A DNA stretch of 31,030 nt from the IMG/VR virus record IMGVR_UViG_3300034073_002228, positions 1-31,030 of that record; one strand, 5' to 3'. Below are positions 6,331 to 27,838 of the stretch, one piece after another. The stretch comes from a virus. Below the pieces are notes generated by a model. That model did not search any database. It was not told where the DNA came from and worked only from the letters and a program-made list of their open reading frames with translations. Made by a program: the position numbers and the translations under genes. Position 1 is the first letter of the stretch. Every line of letters begins with the position of its first letter.

Positions 6331-6735
6331 TCAGGCGGTGCCGCGCGTCACAGTCCCGACGGTCGGGAAGGTGACACTCTGCGTGGCGAGCTCTCCGACC
6401 GCGCCGGCGATCGGCGTCAACTCGGTGATGAGGACGGTCCCGGAATACTTCGGGTTCGCCGTGCCCGTCGCCGTGCCGTTCGGATGCACCTCGAACGCGA
6501 CGGTGCTTCCGAGCAGCGGATAGAGGAGCGCGTCGATCGTCGGATATCCGGTGTGAATGTCCAGCGCGAGGCTGCCATCCTTCAGACCGCCGACGCGAGT
6601 GACCGCGCCACCCGAACCGAACGAGGTCGTCTCGACCTCGGCCGCGCTCGTCGTGAGCGTCACGGAAGCCACGTAGTCCGAGATATCGGTCGTGCCGATC
6701 TTCACGGCCGCATTGGTGAGAACGAGCTTACTCAT
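6331..6735 (-). CDS. Major tail (tube) protein, 134 aa
   Basis: The 134-residue beta-rich protein begins MSKLVLTNAAVKIGTTDIS, with a repeated strand pattern (YVASVTLTTSAAEVETTSFG) and a C-terminal TQSVTFPTVG. These features are typical of the short major tail tube proteins of actinobacteriophages, with the N-terminal 'I..TDIS..V..V....' pattern seen from memory in this family. It lies between the neck genes and the tail chaperone, the expected place for the tube protein, which polymerises in rings around the tape measure. The start at 6735 overlaps the end of the upstream gene, with GGAGGA located 11 nt ahead. Expression is probably high relative to neighbours; I see no separate promoter. Confidence 0.85.
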   Translation of the reverse strand: MSKLVLTNAAVKIGTTDISDYVASVTLTTSAAEVETTSFGSGGAVTRVGGLKDGSLALDIHTGYPTIDALLYPLLGSTVAFEVHPNGTATGTANPKYSGTVLITELTPIAGAVGELATQSVTFPTVGTVTRGTA

Positions 6736-6958
6736 CGGTTGTATCGTCCTCCTCCGAGGCGTCGACGTTTACACCCTGGATTGTACCGGACGAATCCGAG
6801 GATACGCGAATCAGATGACCAGCATCCGCCAGGATCTCCGCAATATCCACCTCGCCCTCGGCGATGAACGCACCCTCGCCCTTGCCGTTCACGTTATGAC
6901 CCGGCGCGACCGTGTAGCCTCGCGCGGGCGTCGTCTTCGACTTCTTCATACTAGCCAT
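6728..6958 (-). CDS. Small acidic virion-module protein, 76 aa
   Basis: The 76-residue protein has a basic N-terminus (MASMKKSKTTPARGYTVAPG), a middle AEGEVDIAEILADAGHLIRV and a strongly acidic tail ending SEEDDTTDE. I do not recognise the family. The middle resembles the short proteins found between tail-completion and tail tube genes in other siphophages, where some are head-tail joining or decoration proteins. It overlaps the upstream neck gene by eight bases and the downstream tail tube by eight bases, so it is co-translated with both and likely needed in similar amounts. The basic-acidic polarity would suit a bridging role, which is inference. Confidence 0.7.
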   Translation of the reverse strand: MASMKKSKTTPARGYTVAPGHNVNGKGEGAFIAEGEVDIAEILADAGHLIRVSSDSSGTIQGVNVDASEEDDTTDE

Positions 6959-7361
6959 ACACTATCACCCGAAACTCGGTTGTCAGATAGATCGTATTGT
7001 CGTTGCCTTCGATCGTGCGGATCGGACCCGCCGACTCGACGACGCTCGCTTGCGCGACACCGCCGAGCGTGACATCCGACTCGATCGCGTAACGAATCCC
7101 ACCCGAACCGTACGACATGTACGTGTCGAGCAGACGCTCGCTCGTGCGCTCCGCCGCCCGGCCGACAACGGTCGTCAGCGTATATGTATGCGTCACAAGT
7201 CCCGGACCCATCGCGCCGTGGTACTCGATGTTCTCGAGCGTCGGGAAGGCGAATGGCGGGTTGATCTGATCGGGCTGCCGATCGTACGTCCGCAGTCCGC
7301 TAATCGTCGCGACGGCAGAGCCGAGCGCCGCCTTCACCTCGCTTACCGTCGGCGTCGTCAC
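6951..7361 (-). CDS. Tail terminator/neck protein, 136 aa
   Basis: The 136-residue protein begins MTTPTVSEVKAALGSAVATI and carries PPFAFPTLENIEYHGAMGPG followed by TYTLTTVVGRAAERTSERLL. The pattern of an N-terminal helix, a strand-rich centre and an 'R..E.....LD.Y' helix is typical of tail terminator or minor capsid proteins that cap the tail tube before head joining. It lies directly after the head-tail connector and before the tail tube gene. The start is GTG at 7361, overlapping the connector stop by four bases. The family call rests on motif and position; a tail-completion protein of the neck is the alternative. Confidence 0.7.
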   Translation of the reverse strand: MTTPTVSEVKAALGSAVATISGLRTYDRQPDQINPPFAFPTLENIEYHGAMGPGLVTHTYTLTTVVGRAAERTSERLLDTYMSYGSGGIRYAIESDVTLGGVAQASVVESAGPIRTIEGNDNTIYLTTEFRVIVYG

Positions 7362-7975
7362 CGGATGTTCCGCATCTTCTTATACGGCATCACGAGCTGC
7401 TCGACGTCCGGGTCGAGGAACCGACTCACGCGAACCGCGCCGAAATCGCCGAAGCCGGCGACGCCGAGCGGCGAGTCGTACCGCTTGAAGATCCGCATCG
7501 ACTGAATGATCGTCGCCGTCTCGATCGCTTGCGGGACGCTCGGCCATCCGAACACTCCCGTGATTCGGATCAGCGCCTCGTCCTGATCGCCGAACGCATT
7601 ACCCGTCGGCCAGACGTAATCATCGATCGCGCGAATCCGATCGTACGCCCACGGGATACCATCGAGATTCCCGTTCAACGGCTCAAGCTGATAGTCGGTG
7701 ACGGTCCACGTGATGAAGTTCCCATCGCCCGCCGGTTCGGATTCGACGGTGATGGCGGTCCCGGCGATGTCATCCGTCTGCAGGATCAGCGGATCACTCG
7801 TCGCGAAGTACCGCGTCACCGTGCCGGACTGGTAGAAGTTCCGCATCGCATACCCATCGATCAGGCGGGACGCCGCCTCGACGGCGCCCTCGATCAGCGC
7901 ATCATCCACCGAGTCGGTAATGCGGAGCGCCTGTTTTACCTGATCCAGCGTGGCATACCCATTCGTAATGGCCAT
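7358..7975 (-). CDS. Head-tail connector (gp6-type adaptor), 205 aa
   Basis: The 205-residue protein begins MAITNGYATLDQVKQALRIT and continues DDALIEGAVEAASRLIDGYA, a pattern of the phage gp6-type adaptor, which packs helices under the portal. The central part is strand-rich with EPAGDGNFITW and DQDEALIRITGVFGWPSVP. The C-terminus has helix IETATIIQSMRIFKRYDSP. Such connectors form the dodecameric ring below the portal. It is the first neck gene after the glycosylation cassette. The ATG lacks a Shine-Dalgarno sequence but follows TACAAT by 6 nt. Expression may thus be uncoupled from the sugar genes upstream. Confidence 0.8.
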   Translation of the reverse strand: MAITNGYATLDQVKQALRITDSVDDALIEGAVEAASRLIDGYAMRNFYQSGTVTRYFATSDPLILQTDDIAGTAITVESEPAGDGNFITWTVTDYQLEPLNGNLDGIPWAYDRIRAIDDYVWPTGNAFGDQDEALIRITGVFGWPSVPQAIETATIIQSMRIFKRYDSPLGVAGFGDFGAVRVSRFLDPDVEQLVMPYKKMRNIR

Positions 7976-7979
7976 ATCG

Positions 7980-8891
7980 TTATTGTAGCCTTGCGCGTCG
8001 CCGCTTTATGACCATCTCGCAGACGCGCCCGATGCCCTCCTCGAGCGTCACCTCGGGCACGACGCGCAGGATCTCCTCCTGCCGACGCAGCATCGGATTC
8101 TTCACGAGCGTCATACGCTCCGGCAGGACCGTGGTGCGAATGAGATCGTGCGACGCTCCGAGCGCGTCGCATATCATCTCCGCCACGTGATACATAGGCC
8201 GGATATCCGGGTGGCCAATGTTGACGACGAGGTAGGGTTCTTCGCGTAACTCGCCAGCACGAATGATCGCCCGAATCGCATCCGTCACGTACAGCCATCC
8301 TCGAGCACTACCGGCATGCACCTCAATCGGGCGCCCGTCGGCGAGGTTCTCGGCGAAGCGGATCATCGCGGAACGATGATCGCCCGTGTCCTCCTCCGCG
8401 TCGTACATCATGAACGGGCGCAGCGTGATCGCGTCCAGTCCATGCGTCATCGCTTCGTACTCGACGAGGCGCTCGCCAAGGAGCTTCGTCAAGCCATACC
8501 GATTATTCGGACGCGGCTCCGCAGTCTCCCGCATATAGTCGCGCGTGTTGCCGTACACCTCGCTCGTCGAGAAGTAGACGAGACGCGCGCCCGACCGGAC
8601 GGCGAGCTCGATAATGTTCTGCGTCCCGACGAGGTTGACATCCGTCGCCATGCTCGGAGCTGACTCGCACGTCACGCGGCTCACCATCGACGCTAGATGA
8701 AATATCACATCCGGCTGATAGTCGAGGATGCCGATCAGGTCCGAAGCGTTCCGAATGTCCGCCGTCAGGTACGAGTCGCGCCATGCGGGCTTATGGTCGA
8801 TCTCGAAAACGTCCACGCCTCGAGCTCGCAACTCGGCGACCAGCGGCCGGCCAATGTTCCCCGCCGCTCCCGTGACGACGGCGCGCCTCAT
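7980..8891 (-). CDS. NAD-dependent sugar epimerase/dehydratase (extended SDR), 303 aa
   Basis: Extended short-chain dehydrogenase of 303 residues. The Rossmann motif is TGAAGNIG (residues 7-14), followed by the acidic strand end DVFEID near residue 31. The catalytic set is Ser/Thr in STSEVYG (108-114) and YGLTK with Tyr132 and Lys136. A substrate-binding part follows (RPFMMYDAEEDTGDHRSAMI, GWLYVTDAIRAI). Family members act on NDP-sugars, for example as UDP-glucose 4-epimerases or dehydratases; the substrate here is unknown. The ATG overlaps the stop of the glycosyltransferase upstream (ATGA). Together with the three transferases it can supply and attach a modified sugar, most likely to virion proteins. 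Confidence 0.9.
   Translation of the reverse strand: MRRAVVTGAAGNIGRPLVAELRARGVDVFEIDHKPAWRDSYLTADIRNASDLIGILDYQPDVIFHLASMVSRVTCESAPSMATDVNLVGTQNIIELAVRSGARLVYFSTSEVYGNTRDYMRETAEPRPNNRYGLTKLLGERLVEYEAMTHGLDAITLRPFMMYDAEEDTGDHRSAMIRFAENLADGRPIEVHAGSARGWLYVTDAIRAIIRAGELREEPYLVVNIGHPDIRPMYHVAEMICDALGASHDLIRTTVLPERMTLVKNPMLRRQEEILRVVPEVTLEEGIGRVCEMVIKRRRARLQ
7982..7987 (-). promoter_or_regulatory. TACAAT -10 box, leaderless start of the connector gene
   Basis: TACAAT on the minus strand is followed by AACGAT and the ATG at 7975. It overlaps the stop codon of the epimerase gene. It is nearly identical to the box before the tail-fibre gene at 1665, over 14 of 15 bases from TACAAT to ATG. It would let the neck and tail genes be transcribed independently of the sugar cassette. 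Confidence 0.6.
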
Positions 8892-9583
8892 CGCAGCCCC
8901 AGCCTCTCCGCATACTCGACGACTTGACGATACGCCGCGTCGCGCTGATCGGGACTCATCTGCACGCCGCTGCGCGTCGCGTGCGCGTTGCCCTCGTCGA
9001 AGATGATCCGCACCGTTGAGGCTTGATATGTCTTCACTCCGAGCGCCGCAGCGTCCATATAGAACGCCCAGTCCGAAGAGTAGATCTCCGACCTGAATCC
9101 GCCGATCTTGTCATATAAGGATCGGCGGAATGGTGCCGCGCCCGGCAAGGTCAGCACGCGCCCGATCGCCGCCGCGTCCCAATACCCGCGCCACTCATCG
9201 CCCCGATACTTCCACCGGATCGCGTCGACGAGCAGCTCGGCGCCCGCATCCTCCGCCGCCTGAATCTCCGTCAACGCATCCGGCAAGAATCGATCATCGA
9301 TACAACACGGCGCGAGCCAATCACTCGTGCAAGCGTCGAAGACTTGATTCCACCAGTCCGAGAATGAGCCACCATCCTCGAGCGTCACGACCGTCAGCGG
9401 AATCTCGGTCAGACGAATATCCTCGAGCATGCGCCGGCATCCCGTCTCGTCCGGGTCGGTCAGGCCGAGGATGATCTCGTTAGGCTTCCGCGTCATCAGG
9501 TCGATCGCCTCGAAATACCCGCCGACGAATCGTGCCCAGTCCGCGCCCCACACGGCGACCGGAACGCTAATCGTTACCGGCAT
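8888..9583 (-). CDS. Glycosyltransferase family 2-like, 231 aa
   Basis: The protein starts MPVTISVPVAVWG, the beginning of a GT-A fold. It has an acidic DD in CCIDDRFLPDAL near residue 95, the place of the DxD metal/nucleotide-sugar site, and the later GGFRSEIYSSDWAFYMDAA, which matches the GT2 'GGF.....ED...' acceptor region. The start at 9583 is chosen because the homologous part begins there; the frame stays open a further 22 codons upstream, but that would overlap the preceding gene widely. It overlaps the upstream transferase by ten bases and the epimerase downstream by four. The acceptor and donor are unknown; virion proteins are the likely acceptors by context. Confidence 0.82.
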   Translation of the reverse strand: MPVTISVPVAVWGADWARFVGGYFEAIDLMTRKPNEIILGLTDPDETGCRRMLEDIRLTEIPLTVVTLEDGGSFSDWWNQVFDACTSDWLAPCCIDDRFLPDALTEIQAAEDAGAELLVDAIRWKYRGDEWRGYWDAAAIGRVLTLPGAAPFRRSLYDKIGGFRSEIYSSDWAFYMDAAALGVKTYQASTVRIIFDEGNAHATRSGVQMSPDQRDAAYRQVVEYAERLGLR

Positions 9584-10350
9584 ACCGCATCCCAATAAAT
9601 ACTCGGCGCAGCCTTCACCCTGGCACGCAACTCGTCCGGCTCGTCCCACCCGTCGATGCTCGTCACGCCGACACGATCATTCGTCACGACACGACACCCG
9701 CACAAGACTGCCTCGATCACGCTCCGACATTCGGACTCGAACTCGAGCGGCAAATGAACGAACACCTCGGCGCGCCGCATATACTCGATCACCGTCGAGC
9801 GGCGCTCGCGCGTCATCACAACGATCGGATAATCATTGATCGCCGCCCACGCGCGCGCATTCTTCAATCCCTTGAGCGGATGATTCCGCGAAGCTGCGAG
9901 CGCGAACCCGTCCCGCTCCTCGGCCGGATACAACTCGGACTCATCGAGCGCGCTCAACACATGGACGACTTCGCGCGGCTCGCACCATCTGATCGTGCGC
10001 GCCTCATGCGCCGGCGTGTGCAGCATCAGCCGCCGCGCCCTCCCGATCAGATGCGCCTTCCACGGCTCGGGCTGCGTCGCATGATGGAGAAAGACGACCG
10101 GCTCGTGCTCGGCGAGGAGATCCGCGTCCGCCTCGCCGATCCCCTCGAGACTCGTCACGAGGACCCGATCGACCGTGTGCGCCTCGCCGGGTTCGATATA
10201 CACCCACGATACACCTTCCGGGCACGCGGCCAAATACTCCGCATCCGACAGTTCGGCACCACCGCGGTACCGTCCGGGAAGCCACGCCTCGCCGAGGTCT
10301 TCCTCCGTCGGCCGGTGCGTCGACACGACGCCGACCCTCACGGCTCCCAC
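9574..10350 (-). CDS. Glycosyltransferase family 4-like, reduced, 258 aa
   Basis: The 258-residue protein begins MGAVRVGVVSTHRPTEEDLG. The C-terminal half shows the GT4-type nucleotide-sugar site: EFESECRSVIEAVLCGCRVV, where Glu205 and Glu213 form the E-x7-E pair, then TNDRVG. A strand-helix unit with ALAASRNHPLKGLKNA (residues 150-165) matches the 'NP.KG...' donor domain start. It is shorter than typical GT-B enzymes (350-400 residues), and the N-terminal acceptor domain is compact. It overlaps the large GT4 upstream by 13 bases and the GT2 downstream by 10, forming one translational unit. The protein may need a partner transferase for acceptor choice. Confidence 0.78.
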   Translation of the reverse strand: MGAVRVGVVSTHRPTEEDLGEAWLPGRYRGGAELSDAEYLAACPEGVSWVYIEPGEAHTVDRVLVTSLEGIGEADADLLAEHEPVVFLHHATQPEPWKAHLIGRARRLMLHTPAHEARTIRWCEPREVVHVLSALDESELYPAEERDGFALAASRNHPLKGLKNARAWAAINDYPIVVMTRERRSTVIEYMRRAEVFVHLPLEFESECRSVIEAVLCGCRVVTNDRVGVTSIDGWDEPDELRARVKAAPSIYWDAVCR

Positions 10351-11621
10351 CTAGCGAGCACCTCGAGGACCGGGCGCCAATGCTCCGCATAGACGCGATC
10401 CGCGTCGTACTGCTCGGCGAACGCGAGCGCGTCCCGACTCGTCTCGCCACGCTCCCGCGCGTACGCACCCTCGAGCGCCTCGACGATCTGCCCGACCAGG
10501 GGCGTGAAAAACCACGAGTTCTGAAACGGGTCCCAAAGCGGCTGACCCTCGACGACCCAGCCATCACCGACGAGTTCGGGCTGCGCCGTCCAGTTACTCA
10601 CGATCACGGGCGTTCCGCACGCCTGCGCCTCGATCACCGGAACGCCGAACCCTTCACCCGCCGAGGTGGCGAGCAGAACGTCCGCGTCCGTGTAGAGCGC
10701 GGCGAGCGCCTGCTGCGGCAATCCCATCCGGTAGGCGTACTGATTGACGAAGCGGACCTGCGCCGGCTTGATCCCGCACGCTCGGATCAGCGCGTGAAGG
10801 TCGACGCCGCCGAGCGCGGACGACTCGTCCGTGTGCAGATACAGGATCGCGTCGGGCTTGTCCTGCGCGAAGATTCCAAACGCGAGCAGATTCTCTCCCC
10901 ACGACTTACGCGGCGGCGTCCTGCCCTTATTCGCCGAGTTCATCATCACGACGAACGCTGACTCGTCCTCGACCTGCATGATGTCGCGTCCGCGGATCGG
11001 CTGGCCGAGCGCATCCGTGAACGAGGGCGTCGGCTTGAAGAACCGGCCATCGAAAGCGTGCGGCGCGTACAGATGCTCGAGACTCTCGAGGCTCATCATC
11101 TCCGAGCCGAATCGGCTCATCGCGATCGGCATCACATTCGGCCGGCGCAGCCATTCGATCACGTCGGGCGGCGCGGGCTTATGATCGATCGGAACCCACG
11201 CGCCGATCTTCGGGATACGATCGATGCTTGGATTTTTCAACGCCCACACGTCGAAGAGGGTGATGACGAGACTCGGCAGGTCCGACCCGCTCGCCCAATG
11301 CTGCGAGTGCGCGGTGAGGATATCGTCCGAGTAGGGCGATACGCCCGTAGGATAGAGCTTGATTCCGTTCCACTCGGTTTCCGATCCTTGGAGTCCGAAG
11401 TTGCAGGCGACGGCGACCTCGTGCCCGTCACGCTTCAGCCGCTCCGTGACCTGCGCCGTCTGCACGCCATAACCCGTGCCGGCGAAGGGTGCGTTACTCG
11501 CCCAGAGCATACGCTGCCGGGTGACACCCGGTGTCACACCTTGCCGCTCCTCACCGGACGACGCACTCGGAATCGTGATCCCCTGCTTCTTCGCCGCTCG
11601 ACGCGCCGCGCGATTCGCCAC
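10338..11621 (-). CDS. Glycosyltransferase family 4 (GT-B), 427 aa
   Basis: A full-length GT-B fold of 427 residues. The N-terminal acceptor domain contains MLWASNAPFAGTGYGVQTAQ (residues 38-57), the glycine loop of GT4. The donor domain has ATSAGEGFGVPVIEAQACGT with Glu323 and Glu331 of the E-x7-E motif, then PVIVSNWTAQPELVGDG. Retaining transfer from a nucleotide sugar is the family reaction. The first 35 residues are basic (NRAARRAAKKQG) and not part of the fold. The GTG start has GAGGGGAG upstream. It is the first gene after the capsid gene, separated by a hairpin, and starts the sugar cassette, so capsid or tail glycosylation is the likely role. Confidence 0.88.
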   Translation of the reverse strand: MANRAARRAAKKQGITIPSASSGEERQGVTPGVTRQRMLWASNAPFAGTGYGVQTAQVTERLKRDGHEVAVACNFGLQGSETEWNGIKLYPTGVSPYSDDILTAHSQHWASGSDLPSLVITLFDVWALKNPSIDRIPKIGAWVPIDHKPAPPDVIEWLRRPNVMPIAMSRFGSEMMSLESLEHLYAPHAFDGRFFKPTPSFTDALGQPIRGRDIMQVEDESAFVVMMNSANKGRTPPRKSWGENLLAFGIFAQDKPDAILYLHTDESSALGGVDLHALIRACGIKPAQVRFVNQYAYRMGLPQQALAALYTDADVLLATSAGEGFGVPVIEAQACGTPVIVSNWTAQPELVGDGWVVEGQPLWDPFQNSWFFTPLVGQIVEALEGAYARERGETSRDALAFAEQYDADRVYAEHWRPVLEVLARWEP

Positions 11622-11643
11622 TTACCGACTCCCCTCTGAATGA

Positions 11644-11681
11644 CTTCGGGCGGCCGACCCGTGAAGATCGACCGCCCGAAG
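11644..11681 (-). terminator. Strong hairpin between capsid and sugar genes
   Basis: A 10-bp perfect stem (CTTCGGGCGG with CCGCCCGAAG) extends by three further pairs across one mismatch. It lies between the capsid stop and the first glycosyltransferase. There is no T-run after it, so it may reduce rather than stop transcription or protect the capsid mRNA 3' end. Confidence 0.6.
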
Positions 11682-11703
11682 GGTACCACTCTCAGCGGAT
11701 CGC

Positions 11704-12894
11704 CTAGGCGGTGCCGCCGATGAACGCCAGGATGTGCGAGGACTGCGGCAGGTTGCCGTCCACGCGAGCCGAAGCTCGGAAGGTTACGAGATCCTCCGAG
11801 AAGGCAAACTCATCGCTGCGGTCGAGGCGGATGCCGCCGACCATGCGAGTGTAGTACGAGGGCATATGCCCAACGATGGCCGATCGGACCCCGGTCCCCG
11901 CGGCCGCGATGGCCGGGTTCTCGATGATCGGCACGCCGAGGAGCATGTCCCGCTGATCCGCGCTGAGGCTCGGGGAGAACAGGAACTGGCCCTGCGAATC
12001 CTTGAGCTTGCGGACCGCACCGACCGTCGCGCCCGACATCTGCCACGCTAGACCCGGCAGAAGGCGAGCCGCCCCGTCCAGGCTGTAGTAGAGATCGATC
12101 AGGTTATCGGCGGTGAACGCACCCGTCACGCCCGTGCCGCCCGTGATGCCGGAACCGGCAGCCGGAACGATGCCCTGCGGCTGCACGGTGCCCGTGCCGT
12201 TGGTCAGGGCGTTGTTGACGTTGAACCCGACGGCGTTGCCGACCTGATCGGCCAGGAAGCCGAGGATGTCGACGCCCGAGTCCTCGATCATCTCACGCGA
12301 GACCTGGATCAGGAAGCCATATTTGTAGGCCTTGAGCTCGACGAACTGACCGAAGGTGGGGTCGGATTCTGAGTAGATACCGGCCTGCGGCGTCACAGTC
12401 GCCGAGGACGAGTACGCGCTCAGACGCGGGACCTGAAGGGTCTCGCCGCCAGCCGTGTTCAGGACCGTGACGACGCTCGGGTCCATCATCGGACCGACCA
12501 GACGCGCCTTGAGAATCACGGAATCGAAGAACGACGTAGGCACGGGGCTGCCGGTCGAGGCGGTGGTCACATCACGCTTCTCGAACGTGTGCGAGCGGAT
12601 CTCGCCACGCGCGAGGGCGCGAATCGCCTCCGCATCCTCATCGTCACCCGCCGGAGCCTCATCCGTGCGGACCTCAGCAGCCACCGCGTCGAGACGCGCA
12701 GCGCGCTCCTCGTCGTTCTTCAGCTGCTCGATGACCTGCGCGCGCTGATCCAACTCAGCGGAAATGCGCTCATAGGTCTCGTTCTCCTCGGCGGTCAGGT
12801 CGCGGTTCTCCGCGGCAGCCGTGTCGAGGAGATGCTTCGCTTCGTGCCACGCCTTCTGGCGCAGCTCGTGCTGACGTGCGATGTAATCGCTCAT
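11704..12894 (-). CDS. Major capsid protein, HK97 family, 396 aa
   Basis: HK97-fold major capsid protein of 396 residues. The N-terminal 100 residues are helical and charged (YERISAELDQRAQVIEQLKN), the delta/scaffold domain that the maturation protease upstream should remove. The mature part holds VPTSFFDSVI, SSATVTPQAGIYSES, KAYKYGFLIQVSREMIEDS, NALTNGTGTVQPQGIVPA and a C-terminal AFSEDLVTFRASARVDG, all typical for the family. I start at ATG 12894 because an AAAGGGGA ribosome binding site precedes it; the frame is open to a GTG at 12987, but this part is a hairpin leader. It is the probable acceptor for the glycosyltransferases downstream. Confidence 0.93.
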   Translation of the reverse strand: MSDYIARQHELRQKAWHEAKHLLDTAAAENRDLTAEENETYERISAELDQRAQVIEQLKNDEERAARLDAVAAEVRTDEAPAGDDEDAEAIRALARGEIRSHTFEKRDVTTASTGSPVPTSFFDSVILKARLVGPMMDPSVVTVLNTAGGETLQVPRLSAYSSSATVTPQAGIYSESDPTFGQFVELKAYKYGFLIQVSREMIEDSGVDILGFLADQVGNAVGFNVNNALTNGTGTVQPQGIVPAAGSGITGGTGVTGAFTADNLIDLYYSLDGAARLLPGLAWQMSGATVGAVRKLKDSQGQFLFSPSLSADQRDMLLGVPIIENPAIAAAGTGVRSAIVGHMPSYYTRMVGGIRLDRSDEFAFSEDLVTFRASARVDGNLPQSSHILAFIGGTA

Positions 12895-26069: not shown

Positions 26070-26543
26070 ATGGCAACCATCACCGACCAAAAGGACGAAG
26101 CCATGACCACGATCACCTGGACCGATCTGCGCTTCATCGGCGAAGAGCCGAACCGCTTCGCCATCGCTGGCGACTACACCGTCCACGAGCGCCTCGTTCC
26201 GAAGCCGGGACAGGACATCCGCGACGCTCACATCCGCTTCGACGTGTCGACGCAGATCGATGGCGATGAGGTCATCATCGCCAAGGGCATTTTCTATGAT
26301 GAGGTGATGCGGATCGTGCGCGGCGAGCAGGAGGAGGTCGACACGAACCTGAACGCCTTCGTCCACTCCGACGACTTTGCGACGATCGCGATGACGCCGG
26401 ATCAGTTGGAGATGCTCCGCACGATACTCGACATCGCCAGCGCTGATGAGACGGGCGACGACGAGGAGCGCGAGCAGGTCGCTACGTTCGCGGACGCGCT
26501 GTACCGGACCATCGCCGCCGCGCTCGCGCAGGCGTCCTCGTGA
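26070..26543 (+). CDS. Small early protein B, 157 aa (146 aa from the internal start)
   Basis: After the MATITDQKDEA leader peptide the protein continues MTTITWTDLRFIGEEPNRFA and later has TQIDGDEVIIAKGIFYDEVM, FATIAMTPDQLEMLRTILDI and an acidic stretch DETGDDEERE. I do not recognise it. The ATG at 26070 is six bases from a -10 box; the in-frame ATG at 26103 has AAAGGA in front. The same two-start layout as in the first gene supports dual initiation or one of the two. Its stop overlaps the GTG of the methyltransferase (GTGA), so the two are co-translated. Its job may be linked to DNA modification or to early host control. Confidence 0.8.
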   Translation: MATITDQKDEAMTTITWTDLRFIGEEPNRFAIAGDYTVHERLVPKPGQDIRDAHIRFDVSTQIDGDEVIIAKGIFYDEVMRIVRGEQEEVDTNLNAFVHSDDFATIAMTPDQLEMLRTILDIASADETGDDEEREQVATFADALYRTIAAALAQASS

Positions 26544-27838
26544 CGCTGACGGTCGGCAGCACCTTTACGGGTGTCGGCGGCGCGGACCTCGGCCTGGAAT
26601 GGGCCGGATTCCGCGTCGCCTGGCAATGCGAACTCGACCCGTGGAAGCAGAGCATCCTCCGGGCGCATTGGCCAGACGTGCCGCTGCATGACGACATCAC
26701 GACCCTACGAGACCCAGAACCCGTCGACCTTATGATCGGCGGGTTTCCGTGTCAGGACTTGTCCGTGGCGGGCAAGCGGAAAGGATTCACCGGTGAACGA
26801 TCCGTCCTCGCGTTCGACTTCCTCCGAGTCGCCGAATCTGTTCGACCCCGATGGCTTCTCCTGGAGAACGTACCGGGCCTCCTGTCAAGTAATCGCGGAC
26901 GAGACTTCGCCCGACTCGTCGATGAAGTGGTCGCGCTGGGGTATGGCGTGGGATGGCGGGTGCTCGATGCCCGCTACTTCAACGTCCCGCAGCGCCGCCG
27001 ACGAGTCTTCCTCGTCGCCCATCGAGCCGACCTTGCGGATGATCCTGGAGCCGCGAGTGAGCGAGCGTTACGCGCTCTCCGCGAAAGCGGCAGCGGGGAT
27101 TCTACGCCGGGTTGGCCGCCGCGGACGGACGCTACCGCCGGAGCTAGAGCGGGCGCTGCGCTCGGTGGCGGAGACGCTCTAGGTTTTTACTCGAAGGGCG
27201 GCGCGATGGATGGCTTCGCAAGCTACGGGAATGCTTCTGGTCCGCTCATGCTGACGAATCCGATGGCCGTCTCCTACCGGAAGAGTAAGCGGGCGCAGAC
27301 GGATCAGGATGATGAGTCCTGGGTCGAGGCGGATGAGACGAACACGCTGAACCGGTTCGACACGGGCGACACGCGCGCGACGCAACTAATCGCAGCAACC
27401 CTCACGCGCGGTGGACATCCCAATAGCAACGCGCCAGGGCGTCGGAAAGAGGACGACGTAAATCTCGTCGCGGAGACGGCGAGCACGCTGCAACGAGCGG
27501 GCGGCGAGCGTGGTCAACGCATCGACGCGGAAGGCGCGGCCGGTGGGCATCTGATCCCATTCAACGCCGAGTTTTCCAATCAAGCGCAGCCGGGCGGAGA
27601 TCAGATGCACACGCTCGACAAGAATCCGAACGCGGCGATCGCGTCGGAGATGAGCGTCCGCCGTTTGACTCCGGTCGAGTGCGAGCGGCTCATGGGATGG
27701 CCGGACAACTGGACGGCACCCGAAGGCGTCAAAGCGCCCGACGGGAAGAGGTACGCGGCATGCGGCGACGGGATCGTCTCGTGGGTCGCGTACTGGATCG
27801 GGCAACGTATCCGAATGATCGAGGAGGAGAACCGATGA
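26540..27838 (+). CDS. DNA (cytosine-5) methyltransferase, 432 aa
   Basis: C5 methyltransferase with the motifs in order: SAM site TFTGVGGADLGLEWAGF (motif I), catalytic GGFPCQDLSVAG (Cys71, motif IV), LLLENVPG with Glu109 (motif VI), NVPQRRRRVFLVAH (motif VIII), then a long variable target-recognition part, SVRRLTPVECERLMGWPDNW, and AACGDGIVSWVAYWIGQRI (motif X). It adds methyl groups to cytosine at C5; the target site is not known. GTG start overlaps the previous stop by GTGA. No restriction enzyme is nearby, so it likely protects phage DNA or changes host expression. The part from codon 85 to 214 also encodes another protein in the +1 frame. Confidence 0.95.
   Translation: MTLTVGSTFTGVGGADLGLEWAGFRVAWQCELDPWKQSILRAHWPDVPLHDDITTLRDPEPVDLMIGGFPCQDLSVAGKRKGFTGERSVLAFDFLRVAESVRPRWLLLENVPGLLSSNRGRDFARLVDEVVALGYGVGWRVLDARYFNVPQRRRRVFLVAHRADLADDPGAASERALRALRESGSGDSTPGWPPRTDATAGARAGAALGGGDALGFYSKGGAMDGFASYGNASGPLMLTNPMAVSYRKSKRAQTDQDDESWVEADETNTLNRFDTGDTRATQLIAATLTRGGHPNSNAPGRRKEDDVNLVAETASTLQRAGGERGQRIDAEGAAGGHLIPFNAEFSNQAQPGGDQMHTLDKNPNAAIASEMSVRRLTPVECERLMGWPDNWTAPEGVKAPDGKRYAACGDGIVSWVAYWIGQRIRMIEEENR
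26793..27182 (+). CDS. Nested overlapping gene inside the methyltransferase gene, 129 aa
   Basis: In the +1 frame within the methyltransferase, GTG 26793 opens a frame of 129 codons that stops right after the region of motif VIII. AAAGGA lies 7 nt ahead. The product reads SWRTYRASCQVIADETSPDS, then SMKWSRWGMAWDGGCSMPAT and ends with RYALSAKAAAGILRRVGRRG and TLPPELERALRSVAE. I recall this ending, RY.LS.KA..GILRR...RG..LP..L..AL, and the W.R.GM.WDG.C motif from phage proteins encoded next to cytosine methyltransferases. A chance frame is unlikely to show a full family pattern. Function unknown; a partner of the methyltransferase is plausible. No search was possible. Confidence 0.7.
   Translation: MNDPSSRSTSSESPNLFDPDGFSWRTYRASCQVIADETSPDSSMKWSRWGMAWDGGCSMPATSTSRSAADESSSSPIEPTLRMILEPRVSERYALSAKAAAGILRRVGRRGRTLPPELERALRSVAETL

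Follow-up and report, generated by a model that had tools for sequence, protein, structure and literature searches.

We found that four sugar-related genes lying between the major capsid protein (MCP) gene and the head–tail connector gene of a virus record of 31,030 bases (IMG/VR record IMGVR_UViG_3300034073_002228, the whole of which is called the window below) belong to a phage locus that probably glycosylates the virion, through one constant enzyme and an exchangeable block of further enzymes. The constant enzyme, a glycosyltransferase of family GT4, is the fixed partner of this capsid gene across relatives. By adjacency, the capsid protein is the first candidate for the main acceptor, a proposal that we hold with somewhat less confidence than that of virion glycosylation as a whole.

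The locus runs along the minus strand of the window in the order terminase, portal, prohead protease, capsid, GT4, compact GT-B enzyme, GT-A enzyme, extended short-chain dehydrogenase/reductase (SDR), connector, tail terminator, major tail protein and tape measure. The capsid-to-connector interval is filled by the four enzymes, whose frames are all open, and the cassette region has a G+C content of ~62–67% with no composition step at the cassette. The original prediction had described three glycosyltransferases and an extended SDR in this interval, overlapping one another by 4–13 bases. Open reading frames (ORFs), profiles and structure models confirmed this content, and the overlaps measure 13 nt between GT4 and P0003, 10 nt between P0003 and P0002 (76 nt if counted from the upstream GTG) and 4 nt between P0002 and the SDR, with the connector starting 4 nt beyond the SDR stop. 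For P0002, the ATG at 9583 is likelier as the start than the upstream GTG of its ORF, as the majority of homologues use it; the likely start of the capsid protein P0005 is the ATG at 12894. A nucleotide search of the window against phages for near relatives gave zero matches. The features under discussion are:

11704..12894 (ORF open to 12987), minus strand: HK97-fold major capsid protein P0005, candidate acceptor (PF05065 3.1e-48, 165 bits; phrog_10 7.5e-64)
12151..12153, minus strand: capsid codon S279 of P0005 (S248 from the likely start), second column with a T365-like pattern
11893..11895, minus strand: capsid codon T365 of P0005 (T334 from the likely start), candidate acceptor loop (S/T pattern versus GT4)
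11644..11681, minus strand: terminator-like hairpin in the capsid/GT4 spacer (spacer fold -48.8 kcal/mol, z -6.1)
10338..11621, minus strand: GT4 (GT-B) glycosyltransferase P0004 (PF00534 4.3e-12; phrog_2170 1.5e-34)
9574..10350, minus strand: compact GT-B glycosyltransferase P0003 (PF00534 2.1e-4, under cut-off; model and Foldseek)
8888..9583 (ORF open to 9649), minus strand: GT-A glycosyltransferase of GT2 type, P0002 (phrog_9549 1.7e-8)
7980..8891, minus strand: extended SDR P0001 (PF01370 7.5e-42)
7358..7975, minus strand: head–tail connector P0009, gp6-type, right border of the exchangeable block (PF05135 4.1e-6; phrog_442 1.8e-16)

The pairing of GT4 with the capsid gene is strikingly consistent. 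We retrieved 80 contig stretches using the capsid protein only, and in all 76 usable ones (the other four end too early) the first called gene after the capsid gene is a GT4. A wider set of 364 loci, obtained with GT4, genes of phiPsal1 and Mae-JY09, and two further capsids as queries, contains 304 with GT4 after the capsid gene, 27 that have a connector but lack GT4, 28 that are too short and five without a capsid gene; loci overlap contigs in this set, and the locus counts are not contig counts. Three of the counted GT4 loci (L121, L129 and L132) start inside or just ahead of GT4, and two (L172 and L173) carry a more distant GT4 type. The order of MCP, GT4 and, further on, connector is kept even at 32% capsid identity (L369). 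Among the 80 relatives listed from bacterial genomes, only L369 and L370 match GT4 over its full length; both have it behind a capsid gene of the P0005 kind, and both come from short contigs of metagenomes, to which the labels Chloroflexi and Microbacteriaceae are attached. The distant GT4 type (37–40% identity; L159, L172 and L173) occurs in head modules without a detectable P0005 homologue, and in L173 it forms part of an 896-residue ORF.

The stretch from GT4 to the connector spans 9 to 3905 nt in the 94 loci having both and holds at least 18 gene combinations, or 15 ignoring homing endonucleases. Labels of 14 of these loci (L009, L011, L041, L085, L086, L091, L092, L097, L119, L123, L127, L141, L144 and L158), which have shadow frames, fused blocks or opposite-strand blocks, were set by hand from cassette length and neighbours. 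Pfam and NCBIfam profiles recognize transferases of the GT2, GT2-like and GT17 kinds, several kinds of SDR, a GFO/IDH/MocA oxidoreductase, a hexapeptide acyltransferase, a TagD-like cytidylyltransferase, several methyltransferases and a GIY-YIG endonuclease. Every nameable part of the blocks is a nucleotide-sugar or glycan enzyme, a methyltransferase or a homing endonuclease; two small clusters, c9 and c15, have no Pfam match. The trio of P0003, P0002 and P0001 follows GT4 in 10 of the 94 loci, the window included, and this recurrence indicates that the arrangement is not due to chance. Homing endonucleases sit inside the cassettes of L126, L138, L155 and L102 (GIY-YIG by Pfam in L138, HNH-like by eye in L102), and may help the exchange of the block.

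The 18 block types could have arisen by as few as 17 changes, but trees of 85 loci require more: 29 for the capsid tree and 25 for that of GT4. The figure of 29 depends on the hand-set labels, and L011 was left off the trees as a duplicate of L086. Close pairs display the same mobility. L130 and L151 share 91.9% identity in the capsid, 91.9% in GT4 and 94.1% in the connector, with blocks labelled 0 and 0+7+2+1, respectively, and L101 and L105 (99.0, 97.8 and 98.0%) differ by one extra gene. The capsids of L006 and L007 are 99.7% identical and their blocks differ: the DNA is ~100% identical across the capsid gene and into the beginning of GT4, falls to 67–81% inside GT4, has nothing in common across the block and resumes at 89.6% identity 13 nt before the connector. 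The drop within GT4 places a breakpoint inside this gene. We rejected a clean exchange between identical flanks for this pair, as the left flank is ~100% identical and the right, at just 89.6%, has not been shared recently. Likewise discarded was a division of GT4 into an N-terminal half that goes with the capsid and a C-terminal half that goes with the block, a pattern seen in L006/L007 and L045/L050 and not in the mean of 279 pairs.

Turning to the enzymes themselves, P0004 passes the Pfam cut-off of PF00534, the GT-B C-terminal domain, with 46.3 against 26.4 bits. The EX7E motif is the hallmark of the GT4 family, and P0004 shows it with E323 and E331, both invariant across 10 aligned members; the strict pattern is present in 127 of 140 complete GT4 ORFs. 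P0003 falls below the same family cut-off (21.3 versus 26.4 bits) and P0002 below that of PF00535 (17.5–17.9 versus 23.3 bits). Nevertheless, matches within their families and structure models assign them to the GT-B and GT-A folds: nine of 15 P0003 family members match PF00534 and 10 of 14 P0002 family members match PF00535 at E ≤ 0.01. The predicted P0003 model (pLDDT, the predicted local distance difference test score, of 91) has a best Foldseek E of 2e-8 and reaches 118 PDB chains at E ≤ 0.001, of which the best 50 listed are all GT-B glycosyltransferases (TMq up to 0.75). Chains of the GtfA type and the T4 AGT are among its fold neighbours. The P0002 model (pLDDT 88.5) matches the WrtF fucosyltransferase (E 8e-15, TMq 0.78), its neighbours include RmlT, TarS and TarP (wall-teichoic-acid enzymes), and D96 is invariant and D97 nearly invariant in its family alignment. 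The models thus confirm P0003 as a predicted compact GT-B enzyme and P0002 as a predicted GT-A enzyme of the GT2 type. P0001 passes the PF01370 cut-off at 143.8 bits, with the YxxxK residues Y132 and K136 and an STSEVYG stretch invariant in eight members, and is a predicted extended SDR of the nucleotide-sugar epimerase/dehydratase/decarboxylase class. Among the best 25 of 30 NCBIfam families listed for it, no equivalog cut-off is reached (best 82.3 versus 224 bits), and these families accordingly lend no equivalog support to a role as UDP-sugar 4-epimerase, decarboxylase or 4,6-dehydratase.

We propose a scheme in which GT4 would act in the cytoplasm while heads assemble, taking the first sugar from a host nucleotide sugar and placing it on a virion protein, of which the major capsid protein is the likeliest. 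P0003 and P0002 would then add further sugars, and P0001 would provide a nucleotide sugar that the host makes insufficiently. Other phages, with other blocks, would build different glycans on nearly the same shell, the likely uses being shielding, masking from host surface sugars and altered adsorption. An order of GT4 as initiator followed by extenders would fit two kinds of locus: in L244, GT4 by itself precedes the connector, indicating that it can act without partners, and in L123 and L127 it is fused to a GT2, suggesting that both act on one product. The second domain of this fusion was tried as a member of the c0 family and gave no such match; it is a different GT2. No multi-pass membrane protein was detected among 281 cassette proteins of the blocks, 27 of which have a marginal hydrophobic window (≤1.92). 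This dearth of membrane machinery, together with the gene position, argues for a cytoplasmic protein acceptor, and adjacency makes the capsid protein its first candidate.

For a comparison of capsids, sequences that agree in both their last 330 residues and their GT4 state were counted once, which left 238 distinct capsids. At T365, S or T occurs in 194 of the 217 with GT4, in none of the 18 whose capsid–connector interval is empty, and in none of the three with only a GT2. The column was chosen on a first set and then checked on newly fetched loci, where S/T occurs in 42 of 50 new capsids with GT4 and in none of 11 without. The position of S279 behaves alike, at a frequency of 0.82 with GT4 versus 0 without it. 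On the tree (L239 left out), there are two changes of GT4 state versus 16 of the T365 residue, so most changes of this residue are unlinked to GT4. T365 and S279 are the two columns, of 142 tested, that are concordant in both contrasts, a concordance that cannot be significant with only two independent GT4 events. T365 as the sole acceptor was rejected on these grounds, and its loop is a candidate place to look rather than acceptor evidence.

Between the capsid gene and GT4 lies a spacer of 82 nt (11622–11703) with a strong terminator-like hairpin. Across 168 distinct spacers of relatives, the mean z is -4.6 and 90% fall below -2 (versus mononucleotide shuffles), the hairpin being kept while the spacer sequence changes, with or without GT4 downstream. 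Its presence in loci without GT4 shows that it belongs to the capsid unit. Hence, GT4 is likely expressed less than the capsid gene or from a start of its own. The originally proposed late expression together with the virion genes is unsupported as it was stated, with this hairpin lying between capsid and GT4. Because spacer and hairpin set it apart from the capsid gene, the cassette is joined more tightly to the connector and tail genes. In loci without GT4, a TAGAAT-like stretch, noticed by eye, follows the hairpin and is perhaps a promoter for the next gene.

Several observations weigh against the proposed function or against the capsid as its target. By splitting capsid and GT4 transcription, the hairpin weakens the case for the capsid as acceptor. 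GT4 and block are missing from close capsid relatives—18 distinct capsids have nothing in the interval and three only a GT2—and that group can thus do without the locus. Linkage of GT4 with the capsid gene might mean co-expression or common descent instead of a substrate relationship. Only two events underlie the pattern in the capsid loops, and S/T is absent at T365 from 23 of the 217 capsids with GT4. GT4 is chimeric in two recent exchanges, yet over 279 different-block pairs its C-terminal half is not less conserved than its N-terminal half. Finally, no homologue of GT4 could be detected in the mycobacteriophages with reportedly glycosylated virions. Virion glycosylation, the function originally predicted, nonetheless stands as the best-supported reading, on account of the GT4–capsid pairing, the lack of multi-pass membrane proteins in the block, the failure to find a maker of hydroxymethylated bases in the window and the mycobacteriophage precedents. 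A fuller version would be a serotype-like locus, in which a capsid-linked GT4 initiates, a combinatorial block is exchanged by recombination able to cut inside GT4, near-identical capsids bear different glycans and the T365/S279 loops are the acceptor; we offer this version tentatively, putting it at slightly less than an even chance.

The nearest rival overlaps with virion glycosylation: the acceptor might be another virion protein, such as the tail tube or the connector, with the capsid linkage reflecting timing. The hairpin ahead of GT4, a block ending just 4 nt from the connector, the GT4 relative in a head module without a detectable P0005 homologue (L159), and the glycans reported for the capsid as well as the tail tube of mycobacteriophages (PMC12619734) are all in its favor. 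We consider it possible but on the unlikely side, given the unbroken adjacency of capsid and GT4 and the difference at two capsid loop positions in phages that lack GT4. Alternatively, the enzymes might modify a host envelope glycan, either the wall polysaccharide or a cytoplasmic precursor, and for example block superinfection. The isolators of Nanopelagicales phages propose wall change as one transferase role (PMC10202952), and varied sugars are described in actinobacterial walls (PMC6106888); the wall-teichoic-acid enzymes among the fold neighbours of P0002 and the TagD-like cytidylyltransferase of some relatives agree with this. Nevertheless, neither a flippase nor a polyprenyl-phosphate enzyme was found among the same 281 cassette proteins that lack multi-pass membrane proteins, the genes are fixed beside the capsid rather than with early or lysogeny genes, and a single GT4 is enough in L244, making a host target improbable.

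Glycosylation of phage DNA, of the T4 or TET type, appears the most remote of the alternatives. The window does encode a C5-cytosine methyltransferase (PF00145), and in TET phages C5-cytosine methylation precedes DNA glycosylation. The T4 AGT is likewise a fold neighbour of P0003, and DNA protection is the other transferase role proposed in PMC10202952. Against this, the 30 window ORFs searched with Pfam, from a record that may be a fragment, include no base-hydroxymethylating enzyme, phiPsal1 carries the locus with no base hydroxymethylase annotated, and the sugar-building blocks sit with head genes. A thymidylate-synthase-like match appeared in one of 12 records (L339 record G006, 6345–6848), which is not the window, and no Tet_JBP match was found in the 12, a weak point because the control was silent as well.

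Glycosylated virions are reported for some mycobacteriophages, as the original prediction had noted: those of Che8, Corndog and Myrna are stated to be glycosylated in PMC12363180, citing Freeman 2023. A similar layout is that of the cluster J mycobacteriophages (Omega, Thibault and LittleE), which, according to the part of PMC3706429 used here, have 8–10 genes between capsid and head–tail connector, with viral versus host targets left open. As in the window, transferase genes occupy the MCP–connector interval. Like the locus group of the window, cluster J has several glycosyltransferases and methyltransferases there, with contents that vary from phage to phage and one transferase that has two catalytic domains. 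As a difference, its interval includes a kinase and a metalloprotease-like protein, and a single constant enzyme is not described in that part of the paper. In Corndog (cluster O), four such genes, gp35–gp38, lie among virion genes, and a 2015 suggestion of capsid modification was made for them (PMC4351075). These, like Che8 gp108–gp110, are small transferase runs with a methyltransferase, but the Corndog genes sit between portal and protease and the Che8 genes at the right genome end. Judged by reading their translations, the Che8 enzymes look like a GT2 with a methyltransferase, a GT2 and a GT25-like protein; we rejected them as P0004 homologues, as tblastn found none and they resemble other transferase types. 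The tblastn search with P0004 reached 11 phage records, no mycobacteriophage among them, and those with P0002 and P0003 gave no match.

The Pontimonas phage phiPsal1 (MG835450), deposited by its authors without discussion (PMC6106888), is also similar. Its order of MCP, GT4 (44% identity to P0004), GT2 and neck protein resembles that of the window and is known from sequence only. It differs in that an opposite-strand methyltransferase and one GT2 replace P0003, P0002 and P0001. This methyltransferase (L158, 8162–8680; PF08241 1.1e-6) lies within the operon, and an ORF of similar size and strand occurs in L163, L167, L176 and L177. Further afield, the loci of streptococcal serine-rich adhesins encode GtfA/GtfB, in which a GT4 starts O-GlcNAc on Ser/Thr in the cytoplasm, along with variable extending transferases. 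That system differs in serving a host adhesin and not a virus, and its likeness to P0004 goes no further than the GT-B fold and motif. In chloroviruses, virus-encoded enzymes build a glycan on the major capsid protein, but these are eukaryotic algal viruses with a capsid fold and enzymes that are not known to be related.

The mycobacteriophage precedents thus show that this kind of system is known; for the arrangement shared by this group of aquatic phages, in which a constant GT4 beside the capsid gene is followed by an exchangeable block, we found no description in the literature searched. The roles proposed for transferases in phages that infect abundant freshwater bacteria are protection of DNA and modification of the wall (PMC10202952). 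The comparative pattern points instead to the virus particle itself. If this is true, aquatic phages would vary their particle surface as bacteria vary their O-antigens. A natural comparison set is at hand in L006/L007 (nearly the same capsid with different blocks), L244 (GT4 alone) and L217/L240 (none).

Beyond the cassette, the prohead protease P0006 (13017–15290) carries a long N-terminal extension, which head proteases do not usually have; its weak matches are HAD-like, polynucleotide-kinase-like (phrog_415, 2.5e-5) and to DUF5824. The C5-cytosine DNA methyltransferase gene lies at 26540–27838 on the plus strand, amid mostly minus-strand ORFs.

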